Source: a virus. From it: 64,000 nucleotides of DNA. The notes below the pieces were generated by a model. It saw only the letters and a list, made by a program, of their open reading frames with translations. It was not told the DNA's origin and did no database searches. Position 1 is the first letter of the stretch. Each line of letters starts with the position of its first letter. The translations under genes were made by a program, and so were the position numbers. Below are positions 36,890-54,580 of the stretch, one piece after another. The DNA lies in the IMG/VR virus record IMGVR_UViG_3300044633_003049, positions 1-64,000 of that record; one strand, given 5' to 3'.

Positions 36890-38701
36890 TTATTTTATTT
36901 TTGCTTCTAAAGCTTCAACACGATTTAATAATTCTTTGTTTGTTTGAATTAACAATGCAACTAATTTTTCGTATTTAACCGCCATATAACCGTTCTCTCT
37001 TGTTGTTACGATTTCAGGTAAAACTGCACCAATTTCTTGTGCAACCACCCCTATATCATGACCTTCATTCTCATGTATACCTGGCATTTCCTTCCAATCG
37101 AAGTAATAACCATTTATTTGTTTTAAGATATCTAAAGAATTTTCAATTGGTGTGATGTTTTCTTTTAGTCTTTCGTCAGAACCGTAGTACGCAATAACAT
37201 CATTTGTTGCTCTAATTAAACCTGCGGTTGTTGGTGGAGTACCAGCACCAACAAGTAATGCGTTAAATTGAACGTTTGATGATGTTGCAACCGCTTGACC
37301 GATTGATATTGTAACCGCTCCCGTTCCTGCACTTACACCAACACCTGTACCTGCAACTGCCGAAGTTACACCCGCATTTGTTAATGTTACAGTACCACCT
37401 AATGATACCGCACCACCACCACTCATACCTGTTCCTGCTGAAACCGTTACTGATGAGTTAGTTAACTTACCATTTGCAACGGATGTATCAACTAATTGTG
37501 AACCATTTATTGTTTTGTTTGTAAGTGTTTGTGTACCACTAATAGTTGCAATTTCAAGTTCAGATCCTAAAGGACCTGCTATCCACTTATCAGTTGTTGT
37601 ATTCCATAATAACGAACCTGATACTAATGATGCTGCGGTTGCGTCTCTAACAACCAAACCCGCATTTGCCGCTCCTGAACCATTTAATGATATAATATTA
37701 TCTCCAATTTCAACGGTTGTTGAGTTGACTGTTGTAGATGTACCAGAAACGACCAAATTACCGCCAATAGTTACAGTTGTACCATCATCAGTTATTGATG
37801 AGTCACCCACAGTTGATGCAGAAGTAAATTTAACTACTTTATTGTTAGTACCTGATGTTGTGATTGAAGTTCCTGAAGAACCATTAGTTCCATTAGAACC
37901 TGAAGAACCATTTGTACCATTGGAACCAGAAGTACCATTTGTACCATTGGAACCTGATGAACCTGAACTACCATTCGTTCCATTAGAACCTGATGAACCG
38001 TTCGTACCATTACTACCACTTGTTCCTGAAGAACCATTTGTTCCGTTACTTCCTGAAGAACCGTTTGTACCTGAAGTACCGTCAGTTCCATTAGAACCGC
38101 TAGTACCTGATGAACCGTTAGTTCCGTTAGAACCTGATGTTCCTGAAGAAGCTGCTGTATATGATGTTCCGTTAATGAATAATGAACCAGTCACAACCAT
38201 ACTACCACTAACCGACATACTACCTGTGATAGATTGACTACCTGTAATATTTTGACTACCTACTAATGTACTTTGACTTGATCCTGCTGAACCTGTTGGA
38301 GGAACTGGAAGACCCACTGAAGCCAAACTCGCTGAAGTTTGTACAACTTGAGCACCTACTTGTATTGTACCATCAGAGTTTGTACTGATAGCTTTAATTC
38401 CACCAATAAAGATAGATCCTGTTGATACGTAGATGTCCTTCCACCAATGTGTTGCGTCACCTAAATCGTAAGCATTATTAACAGAAGGAATTATTGATCC
38501 ACTAATTGTCTGATTTGCGGTGAATAGGTTACTACCTGTGGTTGCAAAACGAGCGGAACCTGTTGTGTTTAGGGCCGAAGCGTTTGATGTGGTACCACTT
38601 ATGGTGGCATTTATTGTTCCGTCTACCTGAAGATCTCCAAAAAAACGAGCTGCGCCCGATACATTAAGTGATCCCGAGATGTTTGCGTCAAATATTTTCA
38701 T
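36890..38701 (-). CDS. collagen-like tail fibre with S74 intramolecular chaperone
   Basis: A 603-residue fibre. Residues 1-186 are Ser/Gly/Thr-rich beta repeats (TGSIFIGG-like). Residues 187-279 are about 31 Gly-X-Y triplets without proline. Residues 280-505 are beta-helix-like with a recurrent SGTQTLTNKTING pattern. From residue 508, SDERLKENI starts a Peptidase_S74 intramolecular chaperone that ends in a coiled coil (LLNRVEALEAKIK). In S74 fibres the chaperone helps trimerisation and cleaves itself off before this serine. It is the receptor-facing candidate of this phage. The 998-aa glycosyltransferase gene is directly upstream. Confidence 0.92.
   Translation of the reverse strand: MKIFDANISGSLNVSGAARFFGDLQVDGTINATISGTTSNASALNTTGSARFATTGSNLFTANQTISGSIIPSVNNAYDLGDATHWWKDIYVSTGSIFIGGIKAISTNSDGTIQVGAQVVQTSASLASVGLPVPPTGSAGSSQSTLVGSQNITGSQSITGSMSVSGSMVVTGSLFINGTSYTAASSGTSGSNGTNGSSGTSGSNGTDGTSGTNGSSGSNGTNGSSGTSGSNGTNGSSGSNGTNGSSGSSGSNGTNGTSGSNGTNGSSGSNGTNGSSGTSITTSGTNNKVVKFTSASTVGDSSITDDGTTVTIGGNLVVSGTSTTVNSTTVEIGDNIISLNGSGAANAGLVVRDATAASLVSGSLLWNTTTDKWIAGPLGSELEIATISGTQTLTNKTINGSQLVDTSVANGKLTNSSVTVSAGTGMSGGGAVSLGGTVTLTNAGVTSAVAGTGVGVSAGTGAVTISIGQAVATSSNVQFNALLVGAGTPPTTAGLIRATNDVIAYYGSDERLKENITPIENSLDILKQINGYYFDWKEMPGIHENEGHDIGVVAQEIGAVLPEIVTTRENGYMAVKYEKLVALLIQTNKELLNRVEALEAKIK
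37865..38143. repeat. collagen-like coding repeat (about 31 Gly-X-Y triplets)
   Basis: Imperfect tandem units of 9 and 15 nt encoding GSN, GTN, GSS and GTS triplets. X and Y are almost only Ser, Thr and Asn (one Asp), never Pro. Slippage or recombination in the repeat could change fibre length. The opposite strand carries a long spurious Pro/Glu/Val-rich reading frame. Confidence 0.9.
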
Positions 38702-38767: not shown

Positions 38768-41764
38768 TTATATTAATTTATCAATTTCTTTTATGACATC
38801 TTGACCTGTGATTGATTTGGAACATTCAAATTGTTGTTTTGTACCTTTATTTACAGGGCACCAGTTCCAATCTCCAGGGTTAAAATCGTAAACATTCCAA
38901 CATCCATGACAAACATCTTTATTAATAATTCTTGAAACTCCGATTGTTGGTTCACTATATTCCTCACTAAAACCTGAAATGATGACACAAGGAATACCCA
39001 CAGACCACGCCAACCAACTTAATCCACTACCAATACCTATAAAAAGTTCCGACTCTTCTAAAACTTGAATTACCTTCTCGATTGGTCCTGATTTTTGTTG
39101 TACGACCCCTTGTGGGTTCTTATTACCCATATATCCATCCTCTTCTCTAGATAATAATCTTACCTCATAACCTTTCCTTTTAAGATGATTAACCACTTGT
39201 TGCCATCCTGTTGCGTTGTTCCAATACTTACATTGTGATGTTGAATGGACAGCAATACACACTCTTTTCTTTTTCTTATTACTAAAAGTTGGTAATTTAG
39301 GTCTAATCTCTTTATATTCTAAACCCAATATATCCGTTGCCATTTTACCCAATGGTTCTACTTTAGGATTGGACGGATGATTATCATATCTAATTGTTCT
39401 TTTATCATCATAAAATAAACCTAATCTATATAGACCATAAATGTTATTCACCCCAACACCAGGTTCCACAAATTCAATTTCAGGATATTGCCCTTTAAAT
39501 AAATCATTTTTAAATGTTGAACATATAATATGACACTTATTTTTAATTCTAAACTCTTCTACATATGGTATCCACGCTAAACTATCCCCCAAAGATTTAG
39601 ATTCGAAACATATCATAATTCTTTGACCTTCAGGATTAAATTTCTCCTCTCTATAAAAATTATTATCAATACCTTTAATCTTAACAATCCAATTAACATA
39701 ATATTTTTTAGATGCTCTTGTCCAATGATTACTCTTGATGTTGGTTTCATAGACAATGTCACCCGTATCCCCATCAATAAATTGAACATTGTACTGGTGT
39801 TCATTATCCTCATTAATTTCAACAAATGGACCATCTACGAAATGTACATTTGTTCTTCTATTTGATGCGACCTTTCTTTCAAAATATAACATTTGTAAGT
39901 TGTCGTTACCTCCACAAAATAAAGTAAAATGACCAAATCCTAATCCTGCCATTCTTTTGATAAGGTTTTCTCTTAGTTCAACATTATACCCTAATAAATT
40001 ATGGTGATATTCCATTGCTATGTTTCTAACCTTTAATAGATTTTCATCCGATATACCTAAAAATGCGTGATGTTCAGCACCTTCAATATCCATCTTTAAA
40101 AAATCTATTTTATTTACAACACCTGTTTCAAACAAATGATTTAATGTATATGTTTTAACAGCATAAGTGTTAGTTACTTCATTTGTTTCCAATAATGTAG
40201 ATCCACCTAAATGTCCAGTTTCGGATAAAACCAATTCACCCATCTCATCCGCAATTGCACCATTATATAATATTGAACGTGGGTCGGCATTTTTTGAAAG
40301 TAATTGGAAATACCTTCTATCTGGTTCAAATGAAATTACTTTAGACGCACCTTGACTATAAGCCCATCTATTAAAGATACCTAAGTTTCCTCCTAAATCA
40401 ACTACCACATCTCCATCAAATATTCGTTTGTCTTGATTGGGGAATTTATAATAATCTTTTAAATTAAAAATTTCATGATAAATTGCTCTCGGCCAACCAA
40501 ACTTATCCGCAACTTCAAGAGTCCCTCCTTGGTAATCTTTAATGTCCCCTAAATTTTCTAATACGTCTACATCTGTGTAGAATTTTCCTGATTTATAAAA
40601 ATCATCTTCTCTAATTGTTTTCTTTTCCATTAATATTTCTGATGCTGTTTTTGCTATTTTATCCCAATTGAAATCTATATGAATTTCCTTTGATTCTTCT
40701 ATTGCGAATGATTTAAACTTTTTATAATCATTCATTACATTTAACATTTGTTCTCCCAAATCTTTCCAATCTGGTTCACAATATTCACCAGGGAAATCTT
40801 TATGTTCCACATTTGCAGGTCTTAAACCATCTATCTTAACGGGAACACCATTACCTTCCGCAAATTCTAATTGACCTCCCCAATTAGAGTAAATTGATGG
40901 TGTTCCACAAGCCATAGCCTCAATCAACGGTAAGTTCCATCCCTCACTACGAGCACAAGTAACGAACACGTCACCTTCTTGTAGATACTTCACATAATCC
41001 TCTCTTGGGGTGAACTTAATAAAGTTAATATTCTCATCATTAATATTATGATACTTAACCCTTTCATCTGTGGTCTTCATTCCGTCGTATGCGTATGGGT
41101 TTTCAACTGACGCAATCAACTCCACATCGGTTCTACCTTTAAAAACCTCACCAAATGTCCTTAAAACCTCTGTAGTTCCTTTTCTATAATCCCATCTACC
41201 AAAGTGTAAGAATCTAAATTTATCTTTCTTTGGTGTCTTATTTAACGGTTTAAATGTCTCCACATCAACTCCTTCAGGTACAATTGATATTTTTGATGAT
41301 GGATATCCTTGTTCAACCAAACAATCAAACTGCCATTGGGTCGGTACCCATACCTCATCAAAATACATTAATCTTTTAAAGAAATCTTGTGGGTAACGTG
41401 TTGATTCCCAAACGTTATATGCTATCTTATATCCATCGTAATTCTCGTGAAAATAATAGTTGTTCATATCCACCAATACAATATGAACGTCAGGTTTATA
41501 ATCATTCTTATAACCATACATAGGTAAATGAGATCTACTACCATCACCATTGATTAGGGTTTGTAGAATTAACATATCCTTCATCTCATCGGTGATATAT
41601 GGTTCATCATCATGAGGTGTATCGTTCATTCCCTTCCAACCCCCACCTATGGTAGAGTTTCTAACCTTAACTGTGTGGTATTTGTTCAGAGCACAAAAAA
41701 AGGACTTTGCGTGATTAGCATATCCTGTTACTCCGATAAAACATGTATGTGCAAGTATTTTCAT
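38768..41764 (-). CDS. GT4 + FkbM methyltransferase + BAHT-like heptosyltransferase fusion, 998 aa
   Basis: Three modules. Residues 1-375: GT4 transferase (FLHFGRWDYRKGTTEVLRTF; ARSEGWNLPLIEAMACGTPSIY). About 440-640: FkbM-type methyltransferase (VVVDLGGNLGIFNRWAYSQG; IDFLKMDIEGAEHHAFLG). About 700-998: GT9-like domain (RIMICFESKSLGDSLAWIPY; GPIEKVIQVLEESELFIGIG) ending in CHGCWN...WCP...FECSKS (Cys952, 955, 969, 981). That end matches the iron finger of autotransporter O-heptosyltransferases, which glycosylate serines of surface proteins. It stands immediately upstream of the collagen-like fibre, its obvious candidate substrate. Confidence 0.88.
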   Translation of the reverse strand: MKILAHTCFIGVTGYANHAKSFFCALNKYHTVKVRNSTIGGGWKGMNDTPHDDEPYITDEMKDMLILQTLINGDGSRSHLPMYGYKNDYKPDVHIVLVDMNNYYFHENYDGYKIAYNVWESTRYPQDFFKRLMYFDEVWVPTQWQFDCLVEQGYPSSKISIVPEGVDVETFKPLNKTPKKDKFRFLHFGRWDYRKGTTEVLRTFGEVFKGRTDVELIASVENPYAYDGMKTTDERVKYHNINDENINFIKFTPREDYVKYLQEGDVFVTCARSEGWNLPLIEAMACGTPSIYSNWGGQLEFAEGNGVPVKIDGLRPANVEHKDFPGEYCEPDWKDLGEQMLNVMNDYKKFKSFAIEESKEIHIDFNWDKIAKTASEILMEKKTIREDDFYKSGKFYTDVDVLENLGDIKDYQGGTLEVADKFGWPRAIYHEIFNLKDYYKFPNQDKRIFDGDVVVDLGGNLGIFNRWAYSQGASKVISFEPDRRYFQLLSKNADPRSILYNGAIADEMGELVLSETGHLGGSTLLETNEVTNTYAVKTYTLNHLFETGVVNKIDFLKMDIEGAEHHAFLGISDENLLKVRNIAMEYHHNLLGYNVELRENLIKRMAGLGFGHFTLFCGGNDNLQMLYFERKVASNRRTNVHFVDGPFVEINEDNEHQYNVQFIDGDTGDIVYETNIKSNHWTRASKKYYVNWIVKIKGIDNNFYREEKFNPEGQRIMICFESKSLGDSLAWIPYVEEFRIKNKCHIICSTFKNDLFKGQYPEIEFVEPGVGVNNIYGLYRLGLFYDDKRTIRYDNHPSNPKVEPLGKMATDILGLEYKEIRPKLPTFSNKKKKRVCIAVHSTSQCKYWNNATGWQQVVNHLKRKGYEVRLLSREEDGYMGNKNPQGVVQQKSGPIEKVIQVLEESELFIGIGSGLSWLAWSVGIPCVIISGFSEEYSEPTIGVSRIINKDVCHGCWNVYDFNPGDWNWCPVNKGTKQQFECSKSITGQDVIKEIDKLI

Positions 41765-41795: not shown

Positions 41796-42599
41796 TCAAA
41801 TCAAATTTTCTATATTTTTTGGTAAATTATTTATGTACTGTGGGAAATTTTTTGATATAAAATCATGTAAATTATGAGCATATGTTTTATTATGGTTTGG
41901 ACCTGGATGATGATTATCCACACCTAAATCTAAATATTTCCCGTAATCTCCATCAAACCTATTGGGGTCATCATATTCAAGTGATTTTAATTCTCCACCA
42001 TTCCAAATCCAATTACATTTTTTTGATTCTAAAAAATATTTTATTAATAAATGATTTTTATACCAATTTATTATGTCCTCATTATTATTTTGTAAATAAG
42101 TTAAATATTCTTGTGTTTTAATACCGTCATCCGTCTCCTTTAAATAACCCCAAGAAGTTGTTGGAATAAATGGTTCAATTCCACCATCTTCGGTATAAAT
42201 TTCTCTTCTATGTGGGAATGTATACATTATTAAAACCAAATCTGGTTTAATCAAATCATAATAACTCATTAAACATCTACATATAAAATCATTACTTCTT
42301 CCACCTGTTCCGAAATTAAAATTTACCGCATTTTCCATATGACTACAAAATTGTGCAGGCCAAGTTTCATTATCATTTACACCAACTCCTTCCGTAATTG
42401 AACAACCCAAAGACATTACTTTAAATCCTTCTTTTTTTATACTATCCCCCCTAAATCCTAATTCATTATAGGTGTAGGTACATAAACCTGTATTATCTGA
42501 TCCCGATGTTTTAAATATTTTGTTTTTTCGTTCATCTAATTTAAACTTAAATGATGAGATTTCAAAAGTCTCAGGTTTCCAATATTCTAATGGACTCAT
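41796..42599 (-). CDS. SGNH/GDSL-like hydrolase, 267 aa
   Basis: VMSLGCSITEGVGVNDNETWP (block I, with GCS in place of GDS), FGTGGRSNDFICR (block II/III, Gly and Asn) and DNHHPGPNHNKTYAHNL (block V, Asp-x-x-His) give the Ser-Gly-Asn-His layout. Such enzymes add or remove acyl groups on glycans. The Ser of GCS keeps the nucleophile position. Three more SGNH-like genes lie at 59.5-61.6 kb. It overlaps the next gene by 4 nt. Confidence 0.78.
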   Translation of the reverse strand: MSPLEYWKPETFEISSFKFKLDERKNKIFKTSGSDNTGLCTYTYNELGFRGDSIKKEGFKVMSLGCSITEGVGVNDNETWPAQFCSHMENAVNFNFGTGGRSNDFICRCLMSYYDLIKPDLVLIMYTFPHRREIYTEDGGIEPFIPTTSWGYLKETDDGIKTQEYLTYLQNNNEDIINWYKNHLLIKYFLESKKCNWIWNGGELKSLEYDDPNRFDGDYGKYLDLGVDNHHPGPNHNKTYAHNLHDFISKNFPQYINNLPKNIENLI

Positions 42600-43246
42600 A
42601 TTAAGGTATTTGTTTTTTTAATCATTTCAAATCCAACATTACCCGCTATAACTATTCTATCTTTGGTAGATTTTCTAGCAGAGGCAGGTACGTGTGGAAC
42701 TCTTCCTTCCATTATTATTATATCATTTTCTTTTGGAAGAATATTATAAATAATTCCATCTTTACCCTCTATGTATAACACACCATCGTTACCTTCTAAA
42801 TTATCAGGCATCTGAACATAGTGAACATATGTGTAATCAGGTCTAAAAACTTTACTCATATGATTTAAATCAGTATGATTGTGCATTACTATTTCGTTTT
42901 CCTTAGAAATATCTTTTTGCTTTGGATTTTTAGCTCTCACAACATTTATCCACGCCTCTGTATTTATTTTATTGTATGGTAATTTTATATTTTCATTAAA
43001 CAATTCAATACACACATTTATTCCTTCTTTAACTATTTCATGTATTTTTGCAGTTGATTCAAAATTACCATTAAAATCTATATTTTCTTTCCATTCACTA
43101 AAGAATCCAAAAGCATCCGTCGGCTTTAAATCTTCCATATCTTTAATAATAATAAGGCATTCTTCTAATACACTATCTTTCATATGTGATATATCAAATT
43201 TAGTTTTCCATATGTATGTCTCATCATCAAAGTATATTTTTTCCAT
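42596..43246 (-). CDS. 2-oxoglutarate/Fe(II) oxygenase-like protein, 216 aa
   Basis: VMHNHTDLNHM supplies His124-x-Asp126. A jelly-roll C-terminus contains GRVPHVPASARKSTKDRIV, with the distal His and a 2OG-binding Arg. Such enzymes hydroxylate proteins or small molecules using iron, oxygen and 2-oxoglutarate. It is more diverged from the other four oxygenases here than they are from one another. It ends TNTLI, close to the KTLI tail of neighbouring genes. Confidence 0.78.
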   Translation of the reverse strand: MEKIYFDDETYIWKTKFDISHMKDSVLEECLIIIKDMEDLKPTDAFGFFSEWKENIDFNGNFESTAKIHEIVKEGINVCIELFNENIKLPYNKINTEAWINVVRAKNPKQKDISKENEIVMHNHTDLNHMSKVFRPDYTYVHYVQMPDNLEGNDGVLYIEGKDGIIYNILPKENDIIIMEGRVPHVPASARKSTKDRIVIAGNVGFEMIKKTNTLI

Positions 43247-43247
43247 A

Positions 43248-43745
43248 TTATATTAATTTATTTGTTTCTATTTTTACATGTTCGTTTTGTAAAAACCACA
43301 ATAAAGAATATCGTTCTCCATCTAAAATTGGTGTTATTTCGTGGTCTATTCTTACATCAAATAAATATGTATTTCCAATAACTTTATCTAATATAATTTC
43401 ATTTGGGTTGTATAATTTAAAATCACCACCTTCAAAATCATCGTTCAATAAAACTCCCACGGCGTATAATCTTCTATCTCTAACATCGTTATGTTTTCCA
43501 AACCAATCACCTTTTGTAAATTTATGAAAATGTATCGTTTTTTTTATTGTTCTAATCCTAATTGTTGTTTCTCTTTCAACAAAATCCTTTAACTTATCAA
43601 ATAACCATTTAGTATCTAATGAATAATTAATTGGTTGTGAGTGGTATTTTCTATCGTTATAATCCCAATCGGTAATATTATTACTTCCATAAAAAATAAT
43701 GGACTGACACTCCTCTTTACTAAATAGTTTATTTTGTTTTATCAT
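43248..43745 (-). CDS. prolyl-4-hydroxylase-type 2OG-Fe(II) oxygenase, 165 aa
   Basis: WFGKHNDVRDRRLYAVGVLL gives His85-x-Asp87. IDHEITPILDGERYSLLWF gives distal His135 and Arg144, the P4H arrangement HxD...H...R. At 165 residues it is just the catalytic core. The first residues LFSKEECQSI are encoded by a 29-bp DNA identical to the start of the next oxygenase gene upstream. It overlaps that gene by 4 nt. The substrate is unknown, and the fibre has no Pro in its collagen-like part. Confidence 0.85.
   Translation of the reverse strand: MIKQNKLFSKEECQSIIFYGSNNITDWDYNDRKYHSQPINYSLDTKWLFDKLKDFVERETTIRIRTIKKTIHFHKFTKGDWFGKHNDVRDRRLYAVGVLLNDDFEGGDFKLYNPNEIILDKVIGNTYLFDVRIDHEITPILDGERYSLLWFLQNEHVKIETNKLI
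43698..43726. repeat. 29-bp direct repeat, copy 1
   Basis: Identical to 44246-44274. It encodes LFSKEECQSI near the start of the 165-aa oxygenase. The rest of the two genes is far less alike. Confidence 0.92.
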
Positions 43746-44296
43746 ATAATATGTTTTATATTTTTAATAGTATCAGATTGAACTATAAAAAACATAAGTG
43801 TAATTCTTTCTCCCAATTCAATTAAATCAACTGAATGTGGTGTATTTGAATCAAATATATATACATTACCTAAATTAAAATCAATATTAACTACATCATT
43901 ATTAATATACATTTTTAAATCTCCACCAATTAAATCTTCCGATTTATGAATCATCACACCAATAGTATACAATCTCCTATCCCCATTGTAAATATGATCA
44001 TCATGTTTTATAAAATAATCACCTTTGATATATTTTCTATAACCCGCATTTAAGTTTTTATTATGATTTATTTTATACAAAACCTCATCCAAAGAATTAA
44101 CCCAATTTATAACTCTATTTTTAATCCAACTATTATTATCGTCCCAATTTATTTTAAACGATTTCATAATACCTCCTTTGTTGGTTAATTGTCCACCCAA
44201 TCGTACGCTTATAATAGTATCATCCCATTTTTCAATATTTTTCAAAATGGACTGACACTCCTCTTTACTAAATAATATTTTTTCTTTTAAAATCAT
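43742..44296 (-). CDS. prolyl-4-hydroxylase-type 2OG-Fe(II) oxygenase, 184 aa
   Basis: YFIKHDDHIYNGDRRLYTIG provides His98-x-Asp100. SNTPHSVDLIELGERITLMF provides His154 and Arg164. It shares order and spacing with the 165-aa oxygenase and the identical N-terminal DNA, but only moderate similarity elsewhere. The truncated sulfotransferase-like frame overlaps its 5' end by 29 nt. It lacks the KTLI-type ending. Confidence 0.85.
   Translation of the reverse strand: MILKEKILFSKEECQSILKNIEKWDDTIISVRLGGQLTNKGGIMKSFKINWDDNNSWIKNRVINWVNSLDEVLYKINHNKNLNAGYRKYIKGDYFIKHDDHIYNGDRRLYTIGVMIHKSEDLIGGDLKMYINNDVVNIDFNLGNVYIFDSNTPHSVDLIELGERITLMFFIVQSDTIKNIKHII
44246..44274. repeat. 29-bp direct repeat, copy 2
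   Basis: Identical to 43698-43726. It lies at the start of the 184-aa oxygenase gene, and the stop codon of the truncated sulfotransferase-like frame (44268-44270) falls inside it. Confidence 0.92.
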
Positions 44297-44432
44297 ACGT
44301 TAAAGTATATGTGTCTTTTCTATATTTTTTATCATATGGGGTTTCATCTAATTCAATATCTAATTCTTTTGATATCCATTTACATAATGTAGTAGATCCA
44401 CATCTTGTACGTGATAAAATCAGGACTATCAC
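44268..44432 (-). pseudogene. truncated sulfotransferase-like N-terminus, 54 codons
   Basis: From a GTG at 44432 (overlapping the TAG of the oxygenase gene upstream) the frame reads IVLILSRTRCGSTTLCKWI, the PAPS 5'-phosphosulfate loop of sulfotransferases, then KELDIELDETPYDKK. It stops after 54 codons, well short of the usual 200 or more. The intact relative is the 199-aa gene at 46.5-47.1 kb. It appears to be a remnant cut off where the next oxygenase gene begins. Translation is possible but unproven. Confidence 0.6.
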
Positions 44433-44947
44433 TATGTTAAAGTTTTTTTATTTTTTTGCGATGGTAAAATCCATATCGCTAATACTTCTCTATTGCCAGA
44501 TATTATGGGAGTAACCTTATGTAATAAATTGGCATCAAATTCAATTATTTCGCCCAATTTTAGAGGGATATGGATATTATCCAGATAAAATTCACCACCA
44601 TTAAAATTATCATTTAATAATATTATATATGTTCTTATTGAGGCACCGGTATCAATATGCTCTTTTGCTTCCTCACCTATTTTATAATTAATATAATGCA
44701 TATTAACAATATATTCCGTTGTTTCATTTATGTTAATATATTTTTTAACAATATCGACTAATTCTTTATTACGTGTATCACAAAAAAACGTTTCACTTTT
44801 AACTAATTCAGTACTATAAGTATTTTTATCCCTTCTTTTATTGTATGGATTTGTTTCTACATTATGACCATTTTCTTCACCATTTTTATAAACTTGTTTT
44901 ATTAAATTTATGTCATTTATGTCAATTTTTATTATGTTATGTTTCAT
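44432..44947 (-). CDS. prolyl-4-hydroxylase-type 2OG-Fe(II) oxygenase, 171 aa
   Basis: GEEAKEHIDTGASIRTYIIL holds His97-x-Asp99. FDANLLHKVTPIISGNREVL holds His143 and Arg153, with GGEFYL between, as in the neighbouring oxygenases. It ends KNKKTLT, one of the KTL-type tails. The target is unknown. Confidence 0.87.
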   Translation of the reverse strand: MKHNIIKIDINDINLIKQVYKNGEENGHNVETNPYNKRRDKNTYSTELVKSETFFCDTRNKELVDIVKKYININETTEYIVNMHYINYKIGEEAKEHIDTGASIRTYIILLNDNFNGGEFYLDNIHIPLKLGEIIEFDANLLHKVTPIISGNREVLAIWILPSQKNKKTLT

Positions 44948-44953
44948 ATTTAA

Positions 44954-46015
44954 TTATATTAAAGTTTTATTAGTGTTATCAATAAACTCATATAAATTAT
45001 GGAATAGATTTTGATTTTTCCATATTTTATTAAATTCTTTTTTAAATAATTCATGTTCTGGATGTTCGGCATCCCATACTTGTTTTAATTTAAATTCACC
45101 TTCGGAAAATGTTCCCCAATTTGTTATCTTTCCAAAAAACACATCTACTTTTTTTCTAAATATAGAATACATTAAATTATAAAATGTTTCCATTTCCATA
45201 TAATTACTATCTTGAACAACAAACGATGTTTTAACACGTATTGGTAATGTATTGATAAATTTAAGATTATTCATTAAATTTTCCCAATTGCCACCTATTC
45301 TTGTTTTATTTTCGTAAGTATCTTTAGTGCCAGCGTCTATACTGATTTCACAAGTGTTTACATAATTATGAATATTTGGCATACTATCCCACATTTTTTT
45401 ATCCCACATACTTGCATTTGTATGTAAATGAATTGATATTAATTTTGGATATTTTTTAGGATTAAAATTTCTTAAATAATTTCTAAACCCCACCGATACA
45501 AATGGGTCACCTGAACCAGTTATGTATAGTGTTTTTACATTTGCAGAATAATAATTATCTATATCTTCAATTGTTTTTTCAACACGTTGTATACCTTCTC
45601 CATTTTCAACAATTAAATCAATTCTACATGAAGGGCATTTATAATTGCATGTCCTGTCAAAATTCATTATAAGATAATCCGGTGTATTATTTTTTATAAT
45701 AGGATTATAAAAACTTGGGTTTAATTTTGTTTTTAAAGTAACGGGTCCAGATGTTACCCCGTAATTTACCAATTTACTTAAATATGGGCAAAGTTCTTTA
45801 TTACAATATTTAAATGAACCATCTAAAATAGAATTTCTAATATCAATAACAGGTTCACTATTATATACATCTTTTAAAGGAATCTCATTAAGTTCTATTT
45901 TATTTGGTAACCAAGATGGACAACATACAAAGCAAACATTATTATGTATTTCTAATGAATTAAATGGAACACTACAAACATAATTTTTTAAATCTATATT
46001 TTTAAATGTATTCAT
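44954..46015 (-). CDS. radical SAM enzyme with N-terminal SPASM-like domain, 353 aa
   Basis: MNFDRTCNYKCPSC gives the CX3CX2C cluster motif (Cys123, 127, 130). LYITGSGDPFVS and SIDAGTKDTYE are later core strands. Before the core, residues 14-76 contain VCSVPFN...VCFVCCP...CNKELCP with an R-N-S-I-L-D-G-S-F block. This looks like the auxiliary-cluster SPASM/twitch domain normally found at the C-terminus. Auxiliary clusters suit peptide-modifying rSAM enzymes. It ends NKTLI. The iron-sulfur module at 11.4-12.4 kb could supply its clusters. Confidence 0.88.
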   Translation of the reverse strand: MNTFKNIDLKNYVCSVPFNSLEIHNNVCFVCCPSWLPNKIELNEIPLKDVYNSEPVIDIRNSILDGSFKYCNKELCPYLSKLVNYGVTSGPVTLKTKLNPSFYNPIIKNNTPDYLIMNFDRTCNYKCPSCRIDLIVENGEGIQRVEKTIEDIDNYYSANVKTLYITGSGDPFVSVGFRNYLRNFNPKKYPKLISIHLHTNASMWDKKMWDSMPNIHNYVNTCEISIDAGTKDTYENKTRIGGNWENLMNNLKFINTLPIRVKTSFVVQDSNYMEMETFYNLMYSIFRKKVDVFFGKITNWGTFSEGEFKLKQVWDAEHPEHELFKKEFNKIWKNQNLFHNLYEFIDNTNKTLI

Positions 46016-46492
46016 TTAAATTAATGTTTTTTGTTTTTTTTGTATTTTTTTATAAAAAGAAATTAAACTAAATCTTTCTCCATTAGTTACATTAAGAACT
46101 CTATGTTCTATTTCTTTATTTATAATTAAGCTATGGTTTATAATTGGTTTTACTTTTATTTCTTCATTTTTAAAAATATACTGAAATTCTCCACCCTCAA
46201 AATTTTCATTAATGTAGGTGATGATACTTAAATCCGCAACATCAATATGATAATTGTCATCAATATTTGTTTTATTGGTTACCTTGTTAATCCATAAATC
46301 ATATAATTGATACCCATCTGGTAAATATTTTGAGCATCTTTTTTGATATTCTAACAACTCTTCTTTTATATTTAAGTTTTTTCTAACGTAGTTATTACGA
46401 TTGTGTGGTAATTGTGTCTCAACAAAATTTGAACATATTGAATTTAAAAAAAATAACTCTTTGTCTGATAATAAATTTTTACATATATTCAT
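46016..46492 (-). CDS. 2OG-Fe(II) oxygenase, 158 aa
   Basis: DDNYHIDVADLSIITYINENF has His82-x-Asp84. KEIEHRVLNVTNGERFSLISF has His130 and Arg140, with GGEFQY between. It is the shortest of the five oxygenases but has every ligand. The tail is QKKQKTLI. The TTTAATTTAAATG junction before the next gene is the same as at 46.5 kb. Confidence 0.85.
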   Translation of the reverse strand: MNICKNLLSDKELFFLNSICSNFVETQLPHNRNNYVRKNLNIKEELLEYQKRCSKYLPDGYQLYDLWINKVTNKTNIDDNYHIDVADLSIITYINENFEGGEFQYIFKNEEIKVKPIINHSLIINKEIEHRVLNVTNGERFSLISFYKKIQKKQKTLI

Positions 46493-47092
46493 TTAAATTA
46501 AAGTTTTATGGTTTTTAATGTCCATATTACCAATTCTATATTTGTTAGAAATATTTAAATATTCATCATAATATTCTTTATTATATACAATTCCCAATTC
46601 ATCAAATATCGGTTGAAAATCACCATAATATAAATCTTCATAATAAAATAGAGGTACATTATATGTATTAGATGTGGTTTTTATTTTTTGTATGTGATTA
46701 TTTGTAATCTCACTATAATGTTCAATTTCACTTTCAGTTATATTGTGTATGTTATATTTTCTTTTTGTGGTGTTTAAATATGACATTTCTTTATTCACTA
46801 AAATATGACTTTCTATTTGGGATTTAAGGTCTTTTCTTATTAAAAAAATAACAGTATCAAAATCAGAAATTAATGTTTCTAATGAACATGGTAGATGGGT
46901 TAATGTAGATTTTATAAATAAATTATCGTTTTTAATTAATTCATTGTACTCCGTATTTTCGGTATGTATATTTTTCTTTGCCCATGGAAACCATGGTTCA
47001 TTATAACAAACATAATTAGGTTTTAATTTTGCAAAATACTTCAATAAGGAAGTTGATCCTGTTCTAGCGATATATATTAATGCGATTTTCAT
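46493..47092 (-). CDS. sulfotransferase-like protein, 199 aa
   Basis: From MKIALIYIARTGSTSLLKYF the protein carries the sulfotransferase PAPS loop (RTGSTSL, about residues 10-16). It then has FDTVIFLIRKDLKSQIESHI with the 3'-phosphate-binding Arg and Ser, and LFYYEDLYYG late in the fold. It should transfer sulfate from PAPS to a glycan or protein hydroxyl. The start at 47092 forms TAATG with the SET gene and is preferred over one 7 codons upstream. The APS kinase at 50.0-50.5 kb could make its donor. It ends NHKTLI. Confidence 0.82.
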   Translation of the reverse strand: MKIALIYIARTGSTSLLKYFAKLKPNYVCYNEPWFPWAKKNIHTENTEYNELIKNDNLFIKSTLTHLPCSLETLISDFDTVIFLIRKDLKSQIESHILVNKEMSYLNTTKRKYNIHNITESEIEHYSEITNNHIQKIKTTSNTYNVPLFYYEDLYYGDFQPIFDELGIVYNKEYYDEYLNISNKYRIGNMDIKNHKTLI

Positions 47093-47472
47093 TATATAAA
47101 TCGGTGGGCCCATTTTTCTAAATATCCTTCTCCATAATTATGACAAATTTCTTCACCAATTTCAATATCTTGAGTGGCTATAAATTCTACTATTTTACCT
47201 ATATTTTGCCAAGTTATGTTTGGTGTATCACTATGATTATATATTGCACCATACCCCACTGGCATTATTGCGTCGTGGTTCTGATGATTTTTTGTGTTTA
47301 ATACAAAACAATAATCTTTTAACGGTGTAGTTTTATAATTATCAATTATTCCGTAACATTGTTCTACAATTTCATCTTTTAATATTTTTTCTTTACAAAA
47401 GACACCCCAACCTTTTTTAGTATCAATAAATTTTATATAAATTTTATTTGATGTATGGATTTCTGTTATCAT
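47092..47472 (-). CDS. SET-domain protein methyltransferase-like, 126 aa
   Basis: KKGWGVFCKEKILKDEIVE (SET-N, residues 19-37), GYGAIYNHSDTPNITWQNI (the NHS block, Asn79-His80-Ser81) and IEIGEEICHNYGEGY (GEE...NYG, about residues 104-117) are in the right order and spacing. SET enzymes methylate lysines, and the terminal Tyr of the catalytic NYG is present. At 126 residues it is a minimal SET core without pre- or post-SET zinc clusters. The target is unknown. Phage SET proteins are rare. Confidence 0.82.
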   Translation of the reverse strand: MITEIHTSNKIYIKFIDTKKGWGVFCKEKILKDEIVEQCYGIIDNYKTTPLKDYCFVLNTKNHQNHDAIMPVGYGAIYNHSDTPNITWQNIGKIVEFIATQDIEIGEEICHNYGEGYLEKWAHRFI

Positions 47473-47477
47473 ACAAT

Positions 47478-47762
47478 TTAATATAAAGTTTTATTAGTTT
47501 TTCTTGATGGAAAATATTCTAAATCAACTGATTCCCATTTTTTTAATGGACAATCGTTGAAAACGTCTGAAAATATTTTTTTCTTGATTGGGCACCCGCA
47601 TTCACCACATACTGTTAATAAATCAATCCCTTTAACTTTTACGTCACGGGATGGGCACACTTCACATATTGATGAACGTTTTACCGCCATCTCTTTTTGT
47701 TTATCCGAACCAAAATACGAATCAAACCAAGCCTTAGTGATTTTTTTGAAATCAAAATCCAT
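47478..47762 (-). CDS. zinc-binding CxxC protein (DUF6171-like), 94 aa
   Basis: SSICEVCPSRDVKVKG and LTVCGECGCPIKKKIFSD, then NDCPLKKW, give two CxxC pairs plus CGC and a late Cys, the pattern of a zinc-ribbon type I recall from phages and bacteria. It is followed by an acidic stretch and the tail TNKTLY. Probably a structural zinc protein. Function unknown. Confidence 0.7.
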   Translation of the reverse strand: MDFDFKKITKAWFDSYFGSDKQKEMAVKRSSICEVCPSRDVKVKGIDLLTVCGECGCPIKKKIFSDVFNDCPLKKWESVDLEYFPSRKTNKTLY

Positions 47763-47783: not shown

Positions 47784-47861
47784 TTAAGAATTTGCGGTAA
47801 TAATTAGTGAACCAATTTGACCCATTACATTATTAATTGTTTGTTTTTCTGTTATTGTCAT
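47784..47861 (-). CDS. possible 25-aa peptide
   Basis: A short frame, MTITEKQTINNVMGQIGSLI then ITANS, fills the only gap between the zinc-binding gene and the Hint-like gene. Base composition and position fit a translated peptide, but length alone gives little support. Confidence 0.35.
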   Translation of the reverse strand: MTITEKQTINNVMGQIGSLIITANS

Positions 47862-47880: not shown

Positions 47881-49410
47881 TTATTTTTGGTTACATGCGA
47901 GACATTGAATCGTTTTTAGACATTGTCTATCGTTCCATGATAGTGGACAACACTGCTGGTTTTTTCCACATATACCACCGAACTCACAATTATTTAAACT
48001 TTCATATGTACAATCCACTCCATTATGTTCAATTGAAACATATGATTTATCTGAGTCCACATCTGATTTTGTTAAGAATATATGAGCGTTTTCTACGGTT
48101 ATTTCATACCCACCAAAAAATTCAGAAACCATTTCAATATTTGATACTTCTTTTATTATAAATAAAGGTGTTTCAAAATTTAATGTATCTAATAATAATA
48201 TATTGTCACCAATAACCATTGAATCATCGTTATCCCCACCATTTAGTTTTAAAAATCTTACTTCATTATTTCTAATTGAAAGGTAATTTGAATGTCGGTT
48301 ATCAAACCAATCACTACCATCGGTAAATGTTATTTTAACAATTTTAGAATATGTATTCACTCGTCTTATGTTAGTAATAGCATTTGTTGAGTATGTTGTA
48401 CCACTCTCTAATTCGGATTGTGATATTCTATAATTTGCAACTGCGCTCATATCTACAACATCAAATGGATTAGGAATATCGATTGTTTTTAATACATCCC
48501 CTACCACCAATTCGGTTGCAACCTTGTATGTACCATCACTCATCAATACCAAGTCTGTATCTGATAATTTTGGTAGTAATAATTGATAATTACCTGCAAT
48601 ATATTTTTCACGACCATTTGTTAATTCAAATGTAGTAGGATTAAATGATGAGTTTATTGTAATCTTATCATCGCATGCTCTTGTATAACCACCTAATGAT
48701 ATAGATTCTAAATTTGGTGGGAATAATAAATTTAATCCTCTAAAAACTTTTATATGGTCTTGTATTAATTCAGATTGATTTAAATGAAACTCCATTAAAA
48801 AATAATCAGAAGTAACTACATTTGAAATAAGACTATCTAATTCTTCTTGTGTAGATACTTTATAAAATTTAGGATAAACTTCTTTATCATAATCAGGTAA
48901 TCTTGCTTTTAAAATAAAATTTGGATGTTCCCCATTATCGTTAATTGTTGTTATATTACTAACGATTGAATTGTTTTCATCTAAATAAGCAAATTGAGAC
49001 CCAAAAGAAGAATCTTTTATTAAATTTAAAAAATTAACTTTATCTCTACAATATGTGTCATCTACCAATGCAGTGGTGTCGTAAGCACTTCTAATAATTA
49101 GAGTTTGATTGTTATCCTCAACAAATGGGATGGTGATTGAGTTTGTATATACCAAATGTTTTTCATATTCAATTCCTAATGTGGTACATGAACCTGATAA
49201 TTCTACATCTAAATTAGAAATATTTCCGATATATACGACTTTGGTAAAAGAATTATCGGTTATAAATGTAGTCAATGTTGTTAAATCCAACAGTGAGTCG
49301 GTTTCTTCAATTGTATTATTATGCCAACCAACTGCGGTATTGATTTCAATTGGTTTTAAATTACCATCTTTGTCGTACATAAAGTCCGAACCTATTAATA
49401 CTGTCCTCAT
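47881..49410 (-). CDS. virion-type protein with degenerate Hint-like domain and Cys-rich tail, 509 aa
   Basis: The N-terminal part begins MRTVLIGSDFMYDKDGNLKP and IEINTAVGW, recalling the metal-binding IEIN end of ATP-grasp folds. Residues about 290-460 look like a Hint (hedgehog/intein) fold: DLVLMSDGTYKVATELVVGD, RHSNYLSIRNNEVRFLKL, SMVIGDNILLLD and ITVENAHIFLTKS. The splicing nucleophile and the terminal His-Asn are not where inteins need them. The last 45 residues contain eight cysteines (CTYE...CEFGGICG..QCCP...QCLKTIQCLAC). A TATTTATA motif lies 18 nt upstream, and a late structural or effector protein is likely. Confidence 0.7.
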   Translation of the reverse strand: MRTVLIGSDFMYDKDGNLKPIEINTAVGWHNNTIEETDSLLDLTTLTTFITDNSFTKVVYIGNISNLDVELSGSCTTLGIEYEKHLVYTNSITIPFVEDNNQTLIIRSAYDTTALVDDTYCRDKVNFLNLIKDSSFGSQFAYLDENNSIVSNITTINDNGEHPNFILKARLPDYDKEVYPKFYKVSTQEELDSLISNVVTSDYFLMEFHLNQSELIQDHIKVFRGLNLLFPPNLESISLGGYTRACDDKITINSSFNPTTFELTNGREKYIAGNYQLLLPKLSDTDLVLMSDGTYKVATELVVGDVLKTIDIPNPFDVVDMSAVANYRISQSELESGTTYSTNAITNIRRVNTYSKIVKITFTDGSDWFDNRHSNYLSIRNNEVRFLKLNGGDNDDSMVIGDNILLLDTLNFETPLFIIKEVSNIEMVSEFFGGYEITVENAHIFLTKSDVDSDKSYVSIEHNGVDCTYESLNNCEFGGICGKNQQCCPLSWNDRQCLKTIQCLACNQK

Positions 49411-49653: not shown

Positions 49654-50036
49654 TTGTCATTCATATCTGGATATTCTATAATATCTCCGTTTGAGTCAAT
49701 ATACCCGTTTCTTATACTTGTACCACTAATTTTTGCCACGTCTTCAGGTGGTTCATGGTAAATGACATCATACCCAACTCCTCTACCATAATTGATACTC
49801 TCAATATCAGGGATGATGGATATGTTAATTCTATGTGAATTTTCCTTAAAGAAGGATTCTTCAGCTAAATCCATCATAACTTGTTGTGCCGTTTTTGGGT
49901 TGTTTTCATCTGTCTCCACATTTCTAATTGCCACCCACACATTCTTTCCCTTTTCTAATTGTTGGTTAAGTAACCATTCGTGACCCTTGTGCCAATTTTG
50001 CCATCTGCCCACATACATTGCATATTTCTTACTCAT
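49650..50036 (-). CDS. HxGH nucleotidyltransferase, 128 aa
   Basis: MYVGRWQNWHKGHEWLLNQQ has the HKGH nucleotide-binding motif, and AKISGTSIRNG the closing IS-G-T-x-I-R. It is a small adenylyl/cytidylyltransferase. NadM- and PPAT-type enzymes share both motifs, and so does the wider superfamily that includes ATP sulfurylase. Its place between DUF2061 and APS kinase raises the possibility of sulfate activation, but NMN or other nucleotidyl transfer is equally allowed. Confidence 0.8.
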   Translation of the reverse strand: MSKKYAMYVGRWQNWHKGHEWLLNQQLEKGKNVWVAIRNVETDENNPKTAQQVMMDLAEESFFKENSHRINISIIPDIESINYGRGVGYDVIYHEPPEDVAKISGTSIRNGYIDSNGDIIEYPDMNDK

Positions 50037-50470
50037 AGTGTTAATTTTTTTAATATTTCATAATAAGAATCTACTTCGGTTTTATCCGTTGTATCCAAAT
50101 CTATAAAGTTTTCGGTAGGTGGTTCATAGTTCTCTACGTGAAACTGATTTCTACCCCTATCTTCCGTCGTGTGAACATAAACCTCAACAACGTCTTCTCT
50201 ATTCTTAAAGTCCTCTCTTTGGTCTTTATATGGTGAAACTAAGGATACCAAGACCGTAAACCCCTTTTTATTCAAAAATTGAGCAATGTCTTGTGCTCTT
50301 TCAATATTTTTTCTCCTTCCCACCTCAGAATAGTCCTTATTTTGGAAAATGTCCCTCAAATCGTCACCATCTATAATGATAGTATTCTCCTTACCAAAAT
50401 GAGTTAGGAGATTGTTTACTAACGTAGTTTTACCTGATGCGGGTTGTCCGGTGAACCAATATATTGACAT
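50033..50470 (-). CDS. cysC: adenylylsulfate (APS) kinase
   Basis: A 145-residue P-loop kinase: FTGQPASGKTTLVNNL (Walker A), IIDGDDLRD (substrate Asp-Gly-Asp-x-x-R), VGRRKNIERAQDIAQFLN and VSLVSPYKDQR. This set marks APS kinase, which phosphorylates APS to PAPS, the universal sulfate donor. It would supply the sulfotransferase-like protein at 46.5 kb. An exact TTATATTATA motif lies 5 nt upstream. Confidence 0.9.
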   Translation of the reverse strand: MSIYWFTGQPASGKTTLVNNLLTHFGKENTIIIDGDDLRDIFQNKDYSEVGRRKNIERAQDIAQFLNKKGFTVLVSLVSPYKDQREDFKNREDVVEVYVHTTEDRGRNQFHVENYEPPTENFIDLDTTDKTEVDSYYEILKKLTL

Positions 50471-50628: not shown

Positions 50629-52296
50629 TTAATTTTTATACATAACATAATTACCCATTACTAATATATCCATATCAGTATCAAAGAAAGTGTCAACCGC
50701 ATCTTTCGGTGTCAACACCATTGTCTTATCTTTAACATTGAATGAGGTATTCAGTAAAATTGGATAACCACTTAATTTTTCAAATTCCCTTAATAAATCA
50801 TGAATTACGGTGTGTTTGTAGACTGTTTGGACTCTAGCACTTCCGTCCACATGAGTAACTGCAAGTAACTTATCTCGATATTCTTCCTTTACCTTAACAA
50901 CTTGATTCATATATGGAACATCGTCTGTCATCTCAAAGAATTGATCCTGTTTCTCTTTGGTTACCATTGGAGCAAACGGTCTAAAACCTTCTCTTTTCTT
51001 AATGACCTTATTAATTCTGTCTTTCATATTAGGTAATGTTGGATTTGCCAATATTGATCTATTACCCAATGCTCTTGATCCGAATTCTATATGACCATTA
51101 AACCATCCCACAACTTTACCTTCAAATAATTTTTGTGCTATATGTGTTCTTAATTTATTTTCAGATTCAAACTTTTTAAAGTTGTTGGTACCAATTGCTC
51201 GTCTAATATCATCCATATAATATTCGGGACCTAAAAATGGATTTCTTGTGATTTTACTTCTTATTTTACGTTCTTTAACCAAATAATGAACGACCGCCCC
51301 GATTGCTGATCCTGCGTCAGATGGTGCCGGTGGAATCCAAAGATGGGTGAAGTGCGTCTTATCGATAATTTTACCATTTGCCGTTCCGTTATATGCACAA
51401 CCACCACTTAATGTTAAGTTTGGACTTTTACTTACGTGTCTAATTGATTTGATAATCTCAAACAATACCTCTTCGTATCTTAATTGAACAGCCGCCGCCA
51501 AATCTTTGTGTGTTTGTTCTAATGTTTCTTCAGGTAATCTTTGTGGAACACTTAATAGTTCCGCAAGTTTCTCATTGAACATAGATTTATCGGTCTTATT
51601 CCAACAAAATACATCCATATTACACACCAACTTACCACTTTTAAATGAAATCAAATCACGTACCTCTTTAATGTACTTTTGAGGGTCACCATAAGATGCC
51701 AATCCCATTACCTTATACTCACCTTCATTCGGTCTAAACCCTAAATAAGAGGTCAATGCAGAGTAATAAAGACCCATAGAATGTGGATACTTTGCAAGTG
51801 AACTGTATTTGATACCGTTGTAATCTGCAACTCCTAAAGATACCGTATCAACCTCACCTACACCGTCTACCGATAAACATGTGGATTCCTCAAAGTGAGA
51901 TGTATAATGTGCATAATATTGATGCGCTTCGTGGTGAGTTGAATAGAACACAGTTGGACAAATTTCTTTCAATCTCTTATCAATTTCTTTTATGTTACTA
52001 CGTATTTTTAAATAGGACTTCAACGAATATAATGGATTCTTAAACCATTGAGGTTTGATGTTTTCTATTACTCTTTGGTATTTTAATTGTGGGTCTTCAT
52101 AATAACAAATCACTTGTAAATTCTTGGGTGTAATCTTATATTGTTTATAGATATATTCCAACGCCCTGACCGGAAACGAATCATCATGTTTAATACCTGT
52201 GAACTTTTCTTCTTCACATGCGAATATTAGTTGATTATCTCTGAATAAACATACAGAGGAGTCGTGGTAAAATGCGGATATTCCTATTATATACAT
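50629..52296 (-). CDS. NodU/CmcH-type carbamoyltransferase, 555 aa
   Basis: MYIIGISAFYHDSSVCLFRD and STHHEAHQYYAHYTSHFEES (metal-binding His cluster) form the Kae1-like half. WFNGHIEFGSRALGNRSILA and EGFRPFAPMVTKEK with LLNTSFNVKDKTMV form the YrdC-like half. Family members carbamoylate O- or N-groups of Nod factors and antibiotics, so a carbamoylated glycan is likely here. Length is normal (about 550). It follows the TEK-type gene by 1 nt. Confidence 0.92.
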   Translation of the reverse strand: MYIIGISAFYHDSSVCLFRDNQLIFACEEEKFTGIKHDDSFPVRALEYIYKQYKITPKNLQVICYYEDPQLKYQRVIENIKPQWFKNPLYSLKSYLKIRSNIKEIDKRLKEICPTVFYSTHHEAHQYYAHYTSHFEESTCLSVDGVGEVDTVSLGVADYNGIKYSSLAKYPHSMGLYYSALTSYLGFRPNEGEYKVMGLASYGDPQKYIKEVRDLISFKSGKLVCNMDVFCWNKTDKSMFNEKLAELLSVPQRLPEETLEQTHKDLAAAVQLRYEEVLFEIIKSIRHVSKSPNLTLSGGCAYNGTANGKIIDKTHFTHLWIPPAPSDAGSAIGAVVHYLVKERKIRSKITRNPFLGPEYYMDDIRRAIGTNNFKKFESENKLRTHIAQKLFEGKVVGWFNGHIEFGSRALGNRSILANPTLPNMKDRINKVIKKREGFRPFAPMVTKEKQDQFFEMTDDVPYMNQVVKVKEEYRDKLLAVTHVDGSARVQTVYKHTVIHDLLREFEKLSGYPILLNTSFNVKDKTMVLTPKDAVDTFFDTDMDILVMGNYVMYKN

Positions 52297-52297
52297 A

Positions 52298-53506
52298 TTA
52301 AATTAAACTTTGGAAAAAATTATAGTCTCTTTTATCATTAAGAATTTCAAAAATTATATTTCTATTTTTTATGAATCTTTCTTCATTATTTTTATAAAAA
52401 TCTTTTATTAATTGTGGATTTTCATTTAATCTTTTTATTTCATCTGCAACCATAAATAACCTTTTACCATTATCAATTTCATTATCATAACTATGGTTTA
52501 CCAAATCATCAAACATATCAAAACCATACATATCTCTTAAATATTTAACATGTTGGTATGTGACCACAAAAACAGGTATTTGGTAAAAATTAAATGGTGT
52601 AAACGTTTTTTCAGTTATATGTATTATATTATTAGACTCAAAATTAGTTTCAGTGGTAATGTTAATATATGAATTTGAATATGTTTTTACTTTATATGAA
52701 TCATCATGATCATATCTATGTCCTCCACCATCAAAATCATAATCATGTTCATATTTACTTTTTCTATTCCCCAAATCCGCAAAATATTTTATTTCGTTTT
52801 TTAAACTGATTGTAATTTCATCACTAAAAACATTACTAAAAAACCATTCAGCAAATATGTCATCATCATTAAACATATTTTTTAACACACTCCCTCTAAG
52901 TAAACTCCAATCAACATTATCTAAAATATCATATTTTTTTAATAAACACAATAAACCCAACCTATGGGATTTCATTGATCTATTATGTGTCATAAATAAA
53001 AATTCTTTTTCTAATATAAATTCAGGATTTGTTAAAGATAATCTGAAACAATTAACATATTGTCCGTGATTTATTGTGTAAACATTAATATCACTATTGT
53101 TTTTATTTTTTAAATTTCCAATTTTATGATTGGCATTTATGTAATAAACTCTTTTTGGGTTTAAGTTTTCTTTTTTTAATCTATAATCAACCATTTCAAT
53201 TGTCTCATCAAAATCTGATTCGTTTAATTCTAAAAAAATTATTTTAAAATTTTCATTATTAATAAAACAATTTTTAATTTCATTTGGTATAGTTTTTACG
53301 ATGTCAATTTCATTTGTGAAATTTAAATACTCACCAATTTTTGTTATGATATAATAAAAATTTTCGTTTGGTGTTTCAGAAACGTCATCAATGTTACATA
53401 TTTTTAAATTATGTACATTTCTTGATGGGGAAGATTCTAATTCATTTCTGATTTCAAATTCAGTAAAATACACACCATCACATACAACATTAAAACGTTT
53501 CTCCAT
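52298..53506 (-). CDS. TEK-motif putative glycosyltransferase, 402 aa
   Basis: The C-terminal third contains ITTETNFESNNIIHITEKTF, then PFNFYQIPVFVVTYQHVKYL and DFYKNNEERFIKNRNIIFEI. The I-T-E-K-T/S-F/Y-x-P/A-I/F stretch followed by a P-x-(I/V/L) strand recalls the donor site of fucosyltransferase-like GT-B enzymes (T/S-E-K). The N-terminal half has LFMTHNRSMKSHRLGLLCLL. Three related copies occur: 54.6 kb and two fused copies from 61.6 kb. Substrate unknown. Confidence 0.6.
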   Translation of the reverse strand: MEKRFNVVCDGVYFTEFEIRNELESSPSRNVHNLKICNIDDVSETPNENFYYIITKIGEYLNFTNEIDIVKTIPNEIKNCFINNENFKIIFLELNESDFDETIEMVDYRLKKENLNPKRVYYINANHKIGNLKNKNNSDINVYTINHGQYVNCFRLSLTNPEFILEKEFLFMTHNRSMKSHRLGLLCLLKKYDILDNVDWSLLRGSVLKNMFNDDDIFAEWFFSNVFSDEITISLKNEIKYFADLGNRKSKYEHDYDFDGGGHRYDHDDSYKVKTYSNSYINITTETNFESNNIIHITEKTFTPFNFYQIPVFVVTYQHVKYLRDMYGFDMFDDLVNHSYDNEIDNGKRLFMVADEIKRLNENPQLIKDFYKNNEERFIKNRNIIFEILNDKRDYNFFQSLI

Positions 53507-53508
53507 TA

Positions 53509-54519: not shown

Positions 54520-54580
54520 ATTTTAATTCTAATTTATTTCATATTATAATCATTATTCCTCACATTTTAAACAATCAAAT

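Follow-up and report, generated by a model that had tools for sequence, protein, structure and literature searches.

What does a dense group of enzymes with several unrelated chemistries do in a phage, and on which target does it act? This question is raised by a stretch of 64,000 nucleotides (the window), which covers positions 1 to 64,000 of the IMG/VR virus record IMGVR_UViG_3300044633_003049, a record of 211,784 bases. Between positions 41796 and 47762 of the window all genes are located on the minus strand in a nearly contiguous run, with the coordinates given in an earlier note made from the sequence alone. The five 2-oxoglutarate (2OG)-Fe(II) oxygenases, the radical S-adenosylmethionine (SAM) enzyme, and the SET-domain, sulfotransferase-like, zinc-ribbon, and SGNH-like proteins which that note had listed were all found in place, with weak matches in case of the SGNH-like and the sulfotransferase-like protein. 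It is strongly supported that the run is the variable part, or one version, of a modular multi-chemistry modification cassette. The dedicated cassette that the earlier note had proposed is thus borne out, since its families co-occur in shuffled order in many phages and have a peptide-level tag in common. Four features were absent from that note, namely the C-terminal tag, the architecture of a protein encoded next to the run (the hub protein), a microprotein (47784-47861), and an internally deleted sulfotransferase-like gene (44268-44432). Such a terminal tag, common to unrelated modifying enzymes around a protein composed of ATP-grasp, Hint, and Cys-rich parts, appears to mark a viral system for making decorated peptides that has not been described before.

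Recurrence of the cassette in phage genomes

Two sets of loci were compared, 57 viral loci selected by the radical SAM gene and about 150 selected by the Hint domain; the cassette was found in 155 non-redundant phage loci. All loci are metagenomic and were annotated by simple open reading frame (ORF) calls, and related loci are not independent. Around one hub gene the same families were observed in varying number and order, at first in the 57 radical-SAM-selected and later in the 155 non-redundant loci. Every one of the 41 radical-SAM-selected loci with a sufficiently long contig contains the hub gene; in the 13 loci where it is missing, the contig stops within 4.4 kb upstream. Further families occur at other loci, i.e., an FAD-dependent Trp halogenase (PF04820, 1.2e-86), a SPASM radical SAM protein, an AspH-type hydroxylase, glycosyltransferases, and a methyltransferase-like family. 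Because the same families recur near the same neighbours in both the 57 and the about 150 loci, the cassette is not a chance assembly, and the comparison of neighbourhoods suggested as a check in the earlier note has turned out in favour of co-occurrence. One 211-kb contig carries two hub genes, with cassette genes beside each (L061 and L110).

In IMG/VR, 57 relatives of the radical SAM protein and about 230 relatives of the hub protein were found. Neither protein has a match in the cultured-phage collection, and a search with the hub among the genomes of 84,980 prokaryote species yielded no confirmed bacterial member. Many of the source samples are, by our impression, of freshwater origin.

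Individual cassette enzyme families are already known in phages (PMC3037559, PMC10452541), and cyanophages and pelagiphages commonly carry 2OG and halogenase genes at scattered places (PMC3037559). The cassette might be regarded as a mere accumulation of auxiliary genes that were gained singly and serve no common purpose, but this is very improbable considering the constant hub and partners, the common tag, and the shuffled order across about 150 loci. Scattered genes without association, which the earlier note had named as the observation that would speak against a cassette, were not encountered in the phages studied here; in cultured cyanophages and pelagiphages, 2OG and halogenase genes without the tag are nonetheless found.

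A shared C-terminal tag on enzymes of unrelated folds

In the window, the products of the run terminate in KTLI (three proteins), KTLT, KTLY, NTLI, NKLI, KNII, KHII, and ENLI, and the SET protein in HRFI. The consensus over the loci compared is K(-7)xx[K/N](-4)[T/S](-3)[L/I](-2)[I/L](-1)-COOH; it stands flush with the stop codon and is borne by cassette enzymes whose folds are unrelated. In 1077 cassette C-termini, the two final positions reach 2.8 bits each. The strict pattern, which was defined after inspecting the window, occurs in 751 of 1176 distinct cassette-family C-termini, compared to 6.4 expected in shuffles permuting the last 30 residues of each protein, and in 4 of 766 C-termini of hub, housekeeping, and structural families. 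Because the list of cassette families was compiled partly with the tag rates in view, fairer controls are given by the shuffles, by the position profile centred on the radical SAM gene, by the phage's own genome, by bacterial homologues, and by cultured-phage neighbours. In the 212-kb genome of the window, 5 of the 10 cassette genes have the tag, compared to 4 of the 208 remaining genes. It is lacking in all 23 bacterial radical SAM homologues and in all 193 genes of their neighbourhoods, as well as in the checked neighbours of 2OG and halogenase genes of cultured cyanophages and pelagiphages. A locus-specific tag code was considered and is weak and confounded by relatedness.

Several junctions between genes of the window resemble each other in DNA (AAAACTTTAATTTAA), including a junction repeat of 45 nt with 87% identity, and the repeated gene ends might thus reflect a DNA or RNA signal such as a promoter, a start-site context, or a recombination joint. 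This explanation is next to negligible. The tag Leu is encoded by TTA, TTG, CTA, CTT, CTC, and CTG, several codons are used for Ser and Thr, all three stop codons occur, and the spacing to the next start ranges from overlap up to >50 bases. Since synonymous codons (including CTN/TTR for Leu and TCN/AGY for Ser), stops, and spacing vary, the tag is a peptide signal and not a DNA signal. Moreover, the motif directly precedes the stop codon without exception, and the hub gene lacks it despite the presence of downstream genes. A T4-type late promoter (TATAAATA) as the source of the common gene ends was rejected for lack of enrichment.

Short terminal peptides common to unrelated enzymes sort the cargo of encapsulins and microcompartments. 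The compact and terminal tag could likewise be a delivery signal that sends the enzymes into the virion or into a compartment of the phage; they would then work on host targets once injected, or inside a body built by the phage. We consider this improbable: no shell or scaffold protein was recognised among the neighbours, in which no search aimed at shells was made, and the tight grouping of the tagged genes with the hub is a better fit to a local partner.

The hub protein

The hub gene (47881..49410, minus strand) encodes, as judged by AlphaFold2 models and fold matches, an ATP-grasp domain (48571-49410), a Hint domain (48022-48570), and a Cys-rich tail (47884-48021). Mean predicted local distance difference test (pLDDT) values of the models are 81 for the full length and 90.5 for residues 1-280. 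For the latter region, the top 25 VIA rows are ATP-grasp enzymes of the GSS/GspS/YgiC type (Z up to 9.3, root-mean-square deviation (rmsd) 4-6). D9, E22, N24, and K168 are invariant in 38 sequences, and by analogy to the family the first three are presumed to be metal ligands and K168 the ATP-binding Lys. The N-terminal domain is thus, by prediction, a permuted ATP-grasp ligase of the glutathione synthetase type. The order of its elements, with the metal-type motif first, resembles that of the permuted eukaryotic glutathione synthetase.

In the predicted model, residues 281-463 adopt a Hint fold which ends at the intein terminal Asn N463. The best match is the BIL2 domain 6y75 (VIA Z 15.7, 145 aligned residues, rmsd 2.7). 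H462-N463 is invariant in 30 aligned proteins, and the motif was found in 150 of 151 hub ORFs. In the same 30 proteins the intein Cys1 and the block-B His are replaced; due to this loss splicing is not expected, and the hub Hint domain is not classed as a splicing intein. A Foldseek comparison of the full hub with viral models returned mainly Hint proteins and no convincing full-length match.

The Cys-rich tail and the microprotein

Following the invariant His-Asn, the hub protein ends in a Cys-rich hypervariable tail (47884..48021, minus strand), the proposed mini-protein and enzyme substrate. All 150 tails compared are distinct and, with the exception of 3 loci, contain an even number of Cys (147 of 150). 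In the first 68 loci they range from 23 to 109 aa, and they are rich in Cys, Gly, Tyr, Ser, and Pro. Many tails of the L158-type clade end in ...KL, KI, or KV, possibly a faint echo of the enzyme tag. In case of L286 (hub gene from 10001), a Cys-rich peptide PCWGCSGYNCNTYGCSNYCAQCSAG is located between two Hint domains, of which the second has a canonical Cys1 and His-Asn; judged from this arrangement, the peptide could be cut at both ends.

Directly after the hub gene an unannotated microprotein of 25 aa is encoded (MTITEKQTINNVMGQIGSLIITANS; 47784..47861, minus strand). An ORF of 24-49 aa follows the hub in all 68 loci of the first set. Ratios of nonsynonymous to synonymous polymorphism (pN/pS) are 0.31 for the 29-aa form and 0.58 for the 25-aa form; values near 1 in the 37- and 49-aa groups were obtained on ungapped mixed alignments and are uninformative. 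Hydrophobic residues are spaced 3 and 4 apart in a heptad-like manner, which suggests an amphipathic or coiled-coil helix.

Proposed peptide maturation and the fibre alternative

Chances are about even, in our view, that the cassette is a machine for peptide maturation, with tagged enzymes tailoring a Cys-rich mini-protein freed by the Hint domain. The Hint domain would cleave after its terminal Asn463 and thereby free the mini-protein, which the tagged enzymes would decorate before or after release. This set would comprise the hydroxylases, the radical SAM enzyme, the sulfotransferase, and the SET methyltransferase, and at other loci the halogenase and glycosyltransferases. The ATP-grasp domain would activate a peptide carboxylate, and by means of the tag all enzymes would dock on a common partner, for which the hub or the microprotein is the likeliest candidate. 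A disulfide-rich, chemically decorated peptide would result, which the phage could use in a tail adhesin or as an effector that is secreted or acts inside the cell. With a somewhat smaller chance, a little short of even, the cassette is a phage assembly line for decorated disulfide-rich peptides, with the ATP-grasp-Hint protein carrying and releasing the core and exchangeable modules plugged in by a universal C-terminal docking tag.

The enzyme content was compared with the composition of the tails. The Trp halogenase is present only where the tail contains Trp (47 of 47 versus 63 of 102), and phylogenetically matched pairs yield a modest link (8 up, 1 down, p 0.03). At loci with SET the tail is richer in Lys (2.47 versus 1.33), with 4 matched pairs up and 0 down (p 0.12). 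For Tyr sulfation, a relation between sulfotransferase families and Tyr in the tail was unsupported after phylogenetic matching.

Several points weigh against the maturation pathway. The link between halogenase and Trp stems largely from one Trp-rich clade, and the link between a 2OG family (2OGc) and Pro in the tail, as expected for prolyl hydroxylation, is gone after phylogenetic matching. The cassette families treated as tagged were partly chosen after their tag rate had been seen. Instead of the tail, the microprotein could be the precursor, or it could be a coiled-coil partner. Furthermore, in about a dozen loci (L126/L266, L128/L277, L130, and relatives) the tail runs into an S74-type intramolecular chaperone, and these hub variants point away from a free peptide and towards an adhesin or fibre of the virion.

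In a possible, though doubtful, alternative, the target of the cassette is an adhesin or fibre of the virion, i.e., the hub as part of a tail tip or the collagen-like S74 fibre encoded next to the run, and the enzymes set host range or shield the receptor-binding tips. Besides the S74 chaperone at the end of some hub variants, the position of the fibre gene and of a TibC/Aah-type gene adjoining the run is consistent with this, as are sheath- and tube-like genes beside some loci. However, the fibre and the TibC-like gene are missing beside many cassettes and the fibre region varies independently, whereas the hub and the microprotein are always there. The earlier note had named the fibre or the Hint-like protein as targets; the evidence leans to the Cys-rich tail of the latter, and the fibre has a TibC-like glycosyltransferase of its own. 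Free peptide and adhesin would be compatible with each other if the decorated mini-protein were the adhesin tip.

Genes of the run

The minus strand encodes all genes of the run listed below. Several are assigned to their family by weak matches, in particular those of the sulfotransferase-like and SGNH proteins. The zinc-ribbon-type protein (47478..47762) carries the tag ...KTNKTLY and, in 15 relatives, six invariant Cys and an invariant Lys at -7. It is followed by the SET-domain protein (47092..47472; Pfam SET 3.8e-13), a putative lysine methyltransferase ending in HRFI. The sulfotransferase-like protein (46493..47113; tag HKTLI) has conserved P-loop-like R-x-GS and R...S motifs, and members of its family reach Sulfotransfer_3/Stf0 weakly, at about 3e-3 to 5e-3. 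The other family, SULTc3, matches heparan sulfate 2-O-sulfotransferase at 4e-4. The radical SAM enzyme (44954..46015; Pfam 2.3e-8; tag NKTLI) has an N-terminal twitch-type region, with an NCBIfam N_Twi_rSAM match of 2.6e-15 that is below the curated cut-off of this model. Its CNYKCPSC sequence corresponds to the CxxxCxxC cluster motif, and C123, C127, and C130 are invariant.

HxD...H...R was found by sequence in all five 2OG proteins, four of which pass the Pfam 2OG-FeII_Oxy_3 cut-off. These four are located at 46016..46492 (HID; 6.1e-6; tag QKTLI), 44432..44947 (HID; 1.2e-6; tag KKTLT), 43742..44296 (HDD; 2e-6; end IKHII), and 43248..43745 (HND; 2.8e-6; tag TNKLI). The fifth, a 2OG-Fe(II) oxygenase-like protein (42596..43246; HTD...H...R; tag TNTLI), has no Pfam match and is assigned by a PHROG match only (phrog_274, 1.8e-7). 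In PHROGs and in phage records (L302-L304), relatives of the 2OG oxygenases bear the names "DNA endonuclease V" or "ferrochelatase", which look like annotation errors. The last gene of the run encodes the SGNH-like protein (41796..42599; end IENLI) with an invariant G-x-S-x-T motif and weak GDSL and DUF6071 matches (Lipase_GDSL_2 E 0.11, DUF6071 E 0.017, GDSL lipase profile E 0.08).

A second sulfotransferase-like gene (44268..44432; end RKNII) aligns by blastp to residues 1-35 and about 148-186 of its 186-aa relatives. As only both ends of the relatives are matched, a large internal deletion is concluded. The neighbouring 2OG genes at 43248 and 43742 are alike in their first 44 nt (91% identity), a sign of recent duplication or recombination, and taken together the deleted gene upstream of them and the alike starts are read as recent shuffling in the region 43248-44432.

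Genomic surroundings

No structural gene was found within the run 41796-47762; structural genes including a T4-like sheath protein were assigned, by sequence, to the genome outside the window. Next to the run, a collagen-like fibre (36890-38701; Gly-X-Y with Ser/Thr/Asn) with an S74 intramolecular chaperone at its end is encoded beside a 998-aa fusion of GT4, FkbM methyltransferase, and TibC/Aah O-heptosyltransferase (38768-41764; TIGR04414 1.9e-85), which is likely a fibre glycosylation enzyme. The TibC/Aah autotransporter heptosyltransferase domain thus also occurs inside a cassette neighbour, but there it is fused to GT4 and FkbM, adjoins the cassette, and is outside the tagged set at most loci.

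On the other side, an APS kinase-like protein (50033..50470, minus strand; Pfam APS_kinase 2.1e-17) could, to judge from its family, be a source of the sulfate donor 3'-phosphoadenosine-5'-phosphosulfate (PAPS) for the sulfotransferase. Carbamoyltransferase, GDP-mannose dehydratase-type short-chain dehydrogenase/reductase (SDR), and DegT aminotransferase genes at 50629-58796 form a sugar-nucleotide or surface-glycan block.

Relation to known systems

Clusters for ribosomally synthesized and post-translationally modified peptides (RiPPs) include those of proteusins, of microviridins with ATP-grasp ligases, and of enzyme-precursor fusions such as borosins. Similar to these, the cassette combines a short hypervariable peptide with radical SAM, 2OG, methyltransferase, halogenase, and ATP-grasp enzymes. 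The tailoring enzymes around the hub are radical SAM, 2OG, sulfotransferase-like, SET, halogenase, and methyltransferase-like proteins, and the hypervariable Cys-rich tail and the conserved microprotein are candidate precursors, either of which may be modified. No leader peptide was identified, and no Pfam hit was suggestive of a RiPP recognition element (RRE); neither was the object of a targeted search. In contrast to RiPP clusters, an ATP-grasp-Hint protein would provide the core in its tail, the enzymes have a common C-terminal tag, and the system is phage-borne. Thus the cassette, as known here from genes and models, appears RiPP-like in part.

With the bacterial intein-like (BIL) and other Hint domains the hub shares the fold and the terminal His-Asn, but it lacks the intein Cys1 and block-B His and is fused to ATP-grasp and a Cys-rich tail. 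Class I PDZ ligands have a [T/S]-x-hydrophobic end, which the end of the tag resembles, and a short terminal peptide on unrelated enzymes is likewise known from encapsulin and bacterial microcompartment cargo. The tag differs in sequence from these peptides, and neither a shell protein, for which no targeted search was made, nor a PDZ domain was found. The 2OG and Trp halogenase genes of cyanophages and pelagiphages (e.g., HTVC008M, P-SSM2, and S-H38) belong to the same superfamilies and sometimes form runs beside structural genes, but they are without the tag, and the hub is unmatched in the phage collection. No paper combining ATP-grasp, Hint domain, and phage was found, and the earlier note's statement that no described system matches agrees with the literature searched, coverage of which is incomplete.

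If true, one tag on a dozen or more unrelated enzymes would amount to a plug-in code for modification pathways, and viruses would supply new modified peptides by means of a self-releasing hypervariable Cys-rich peptide that has halogenase, sulfotransferase, and radical SAM enzymes as partners. Decorated peptides of this kind may account for how these phages diversify host contact.

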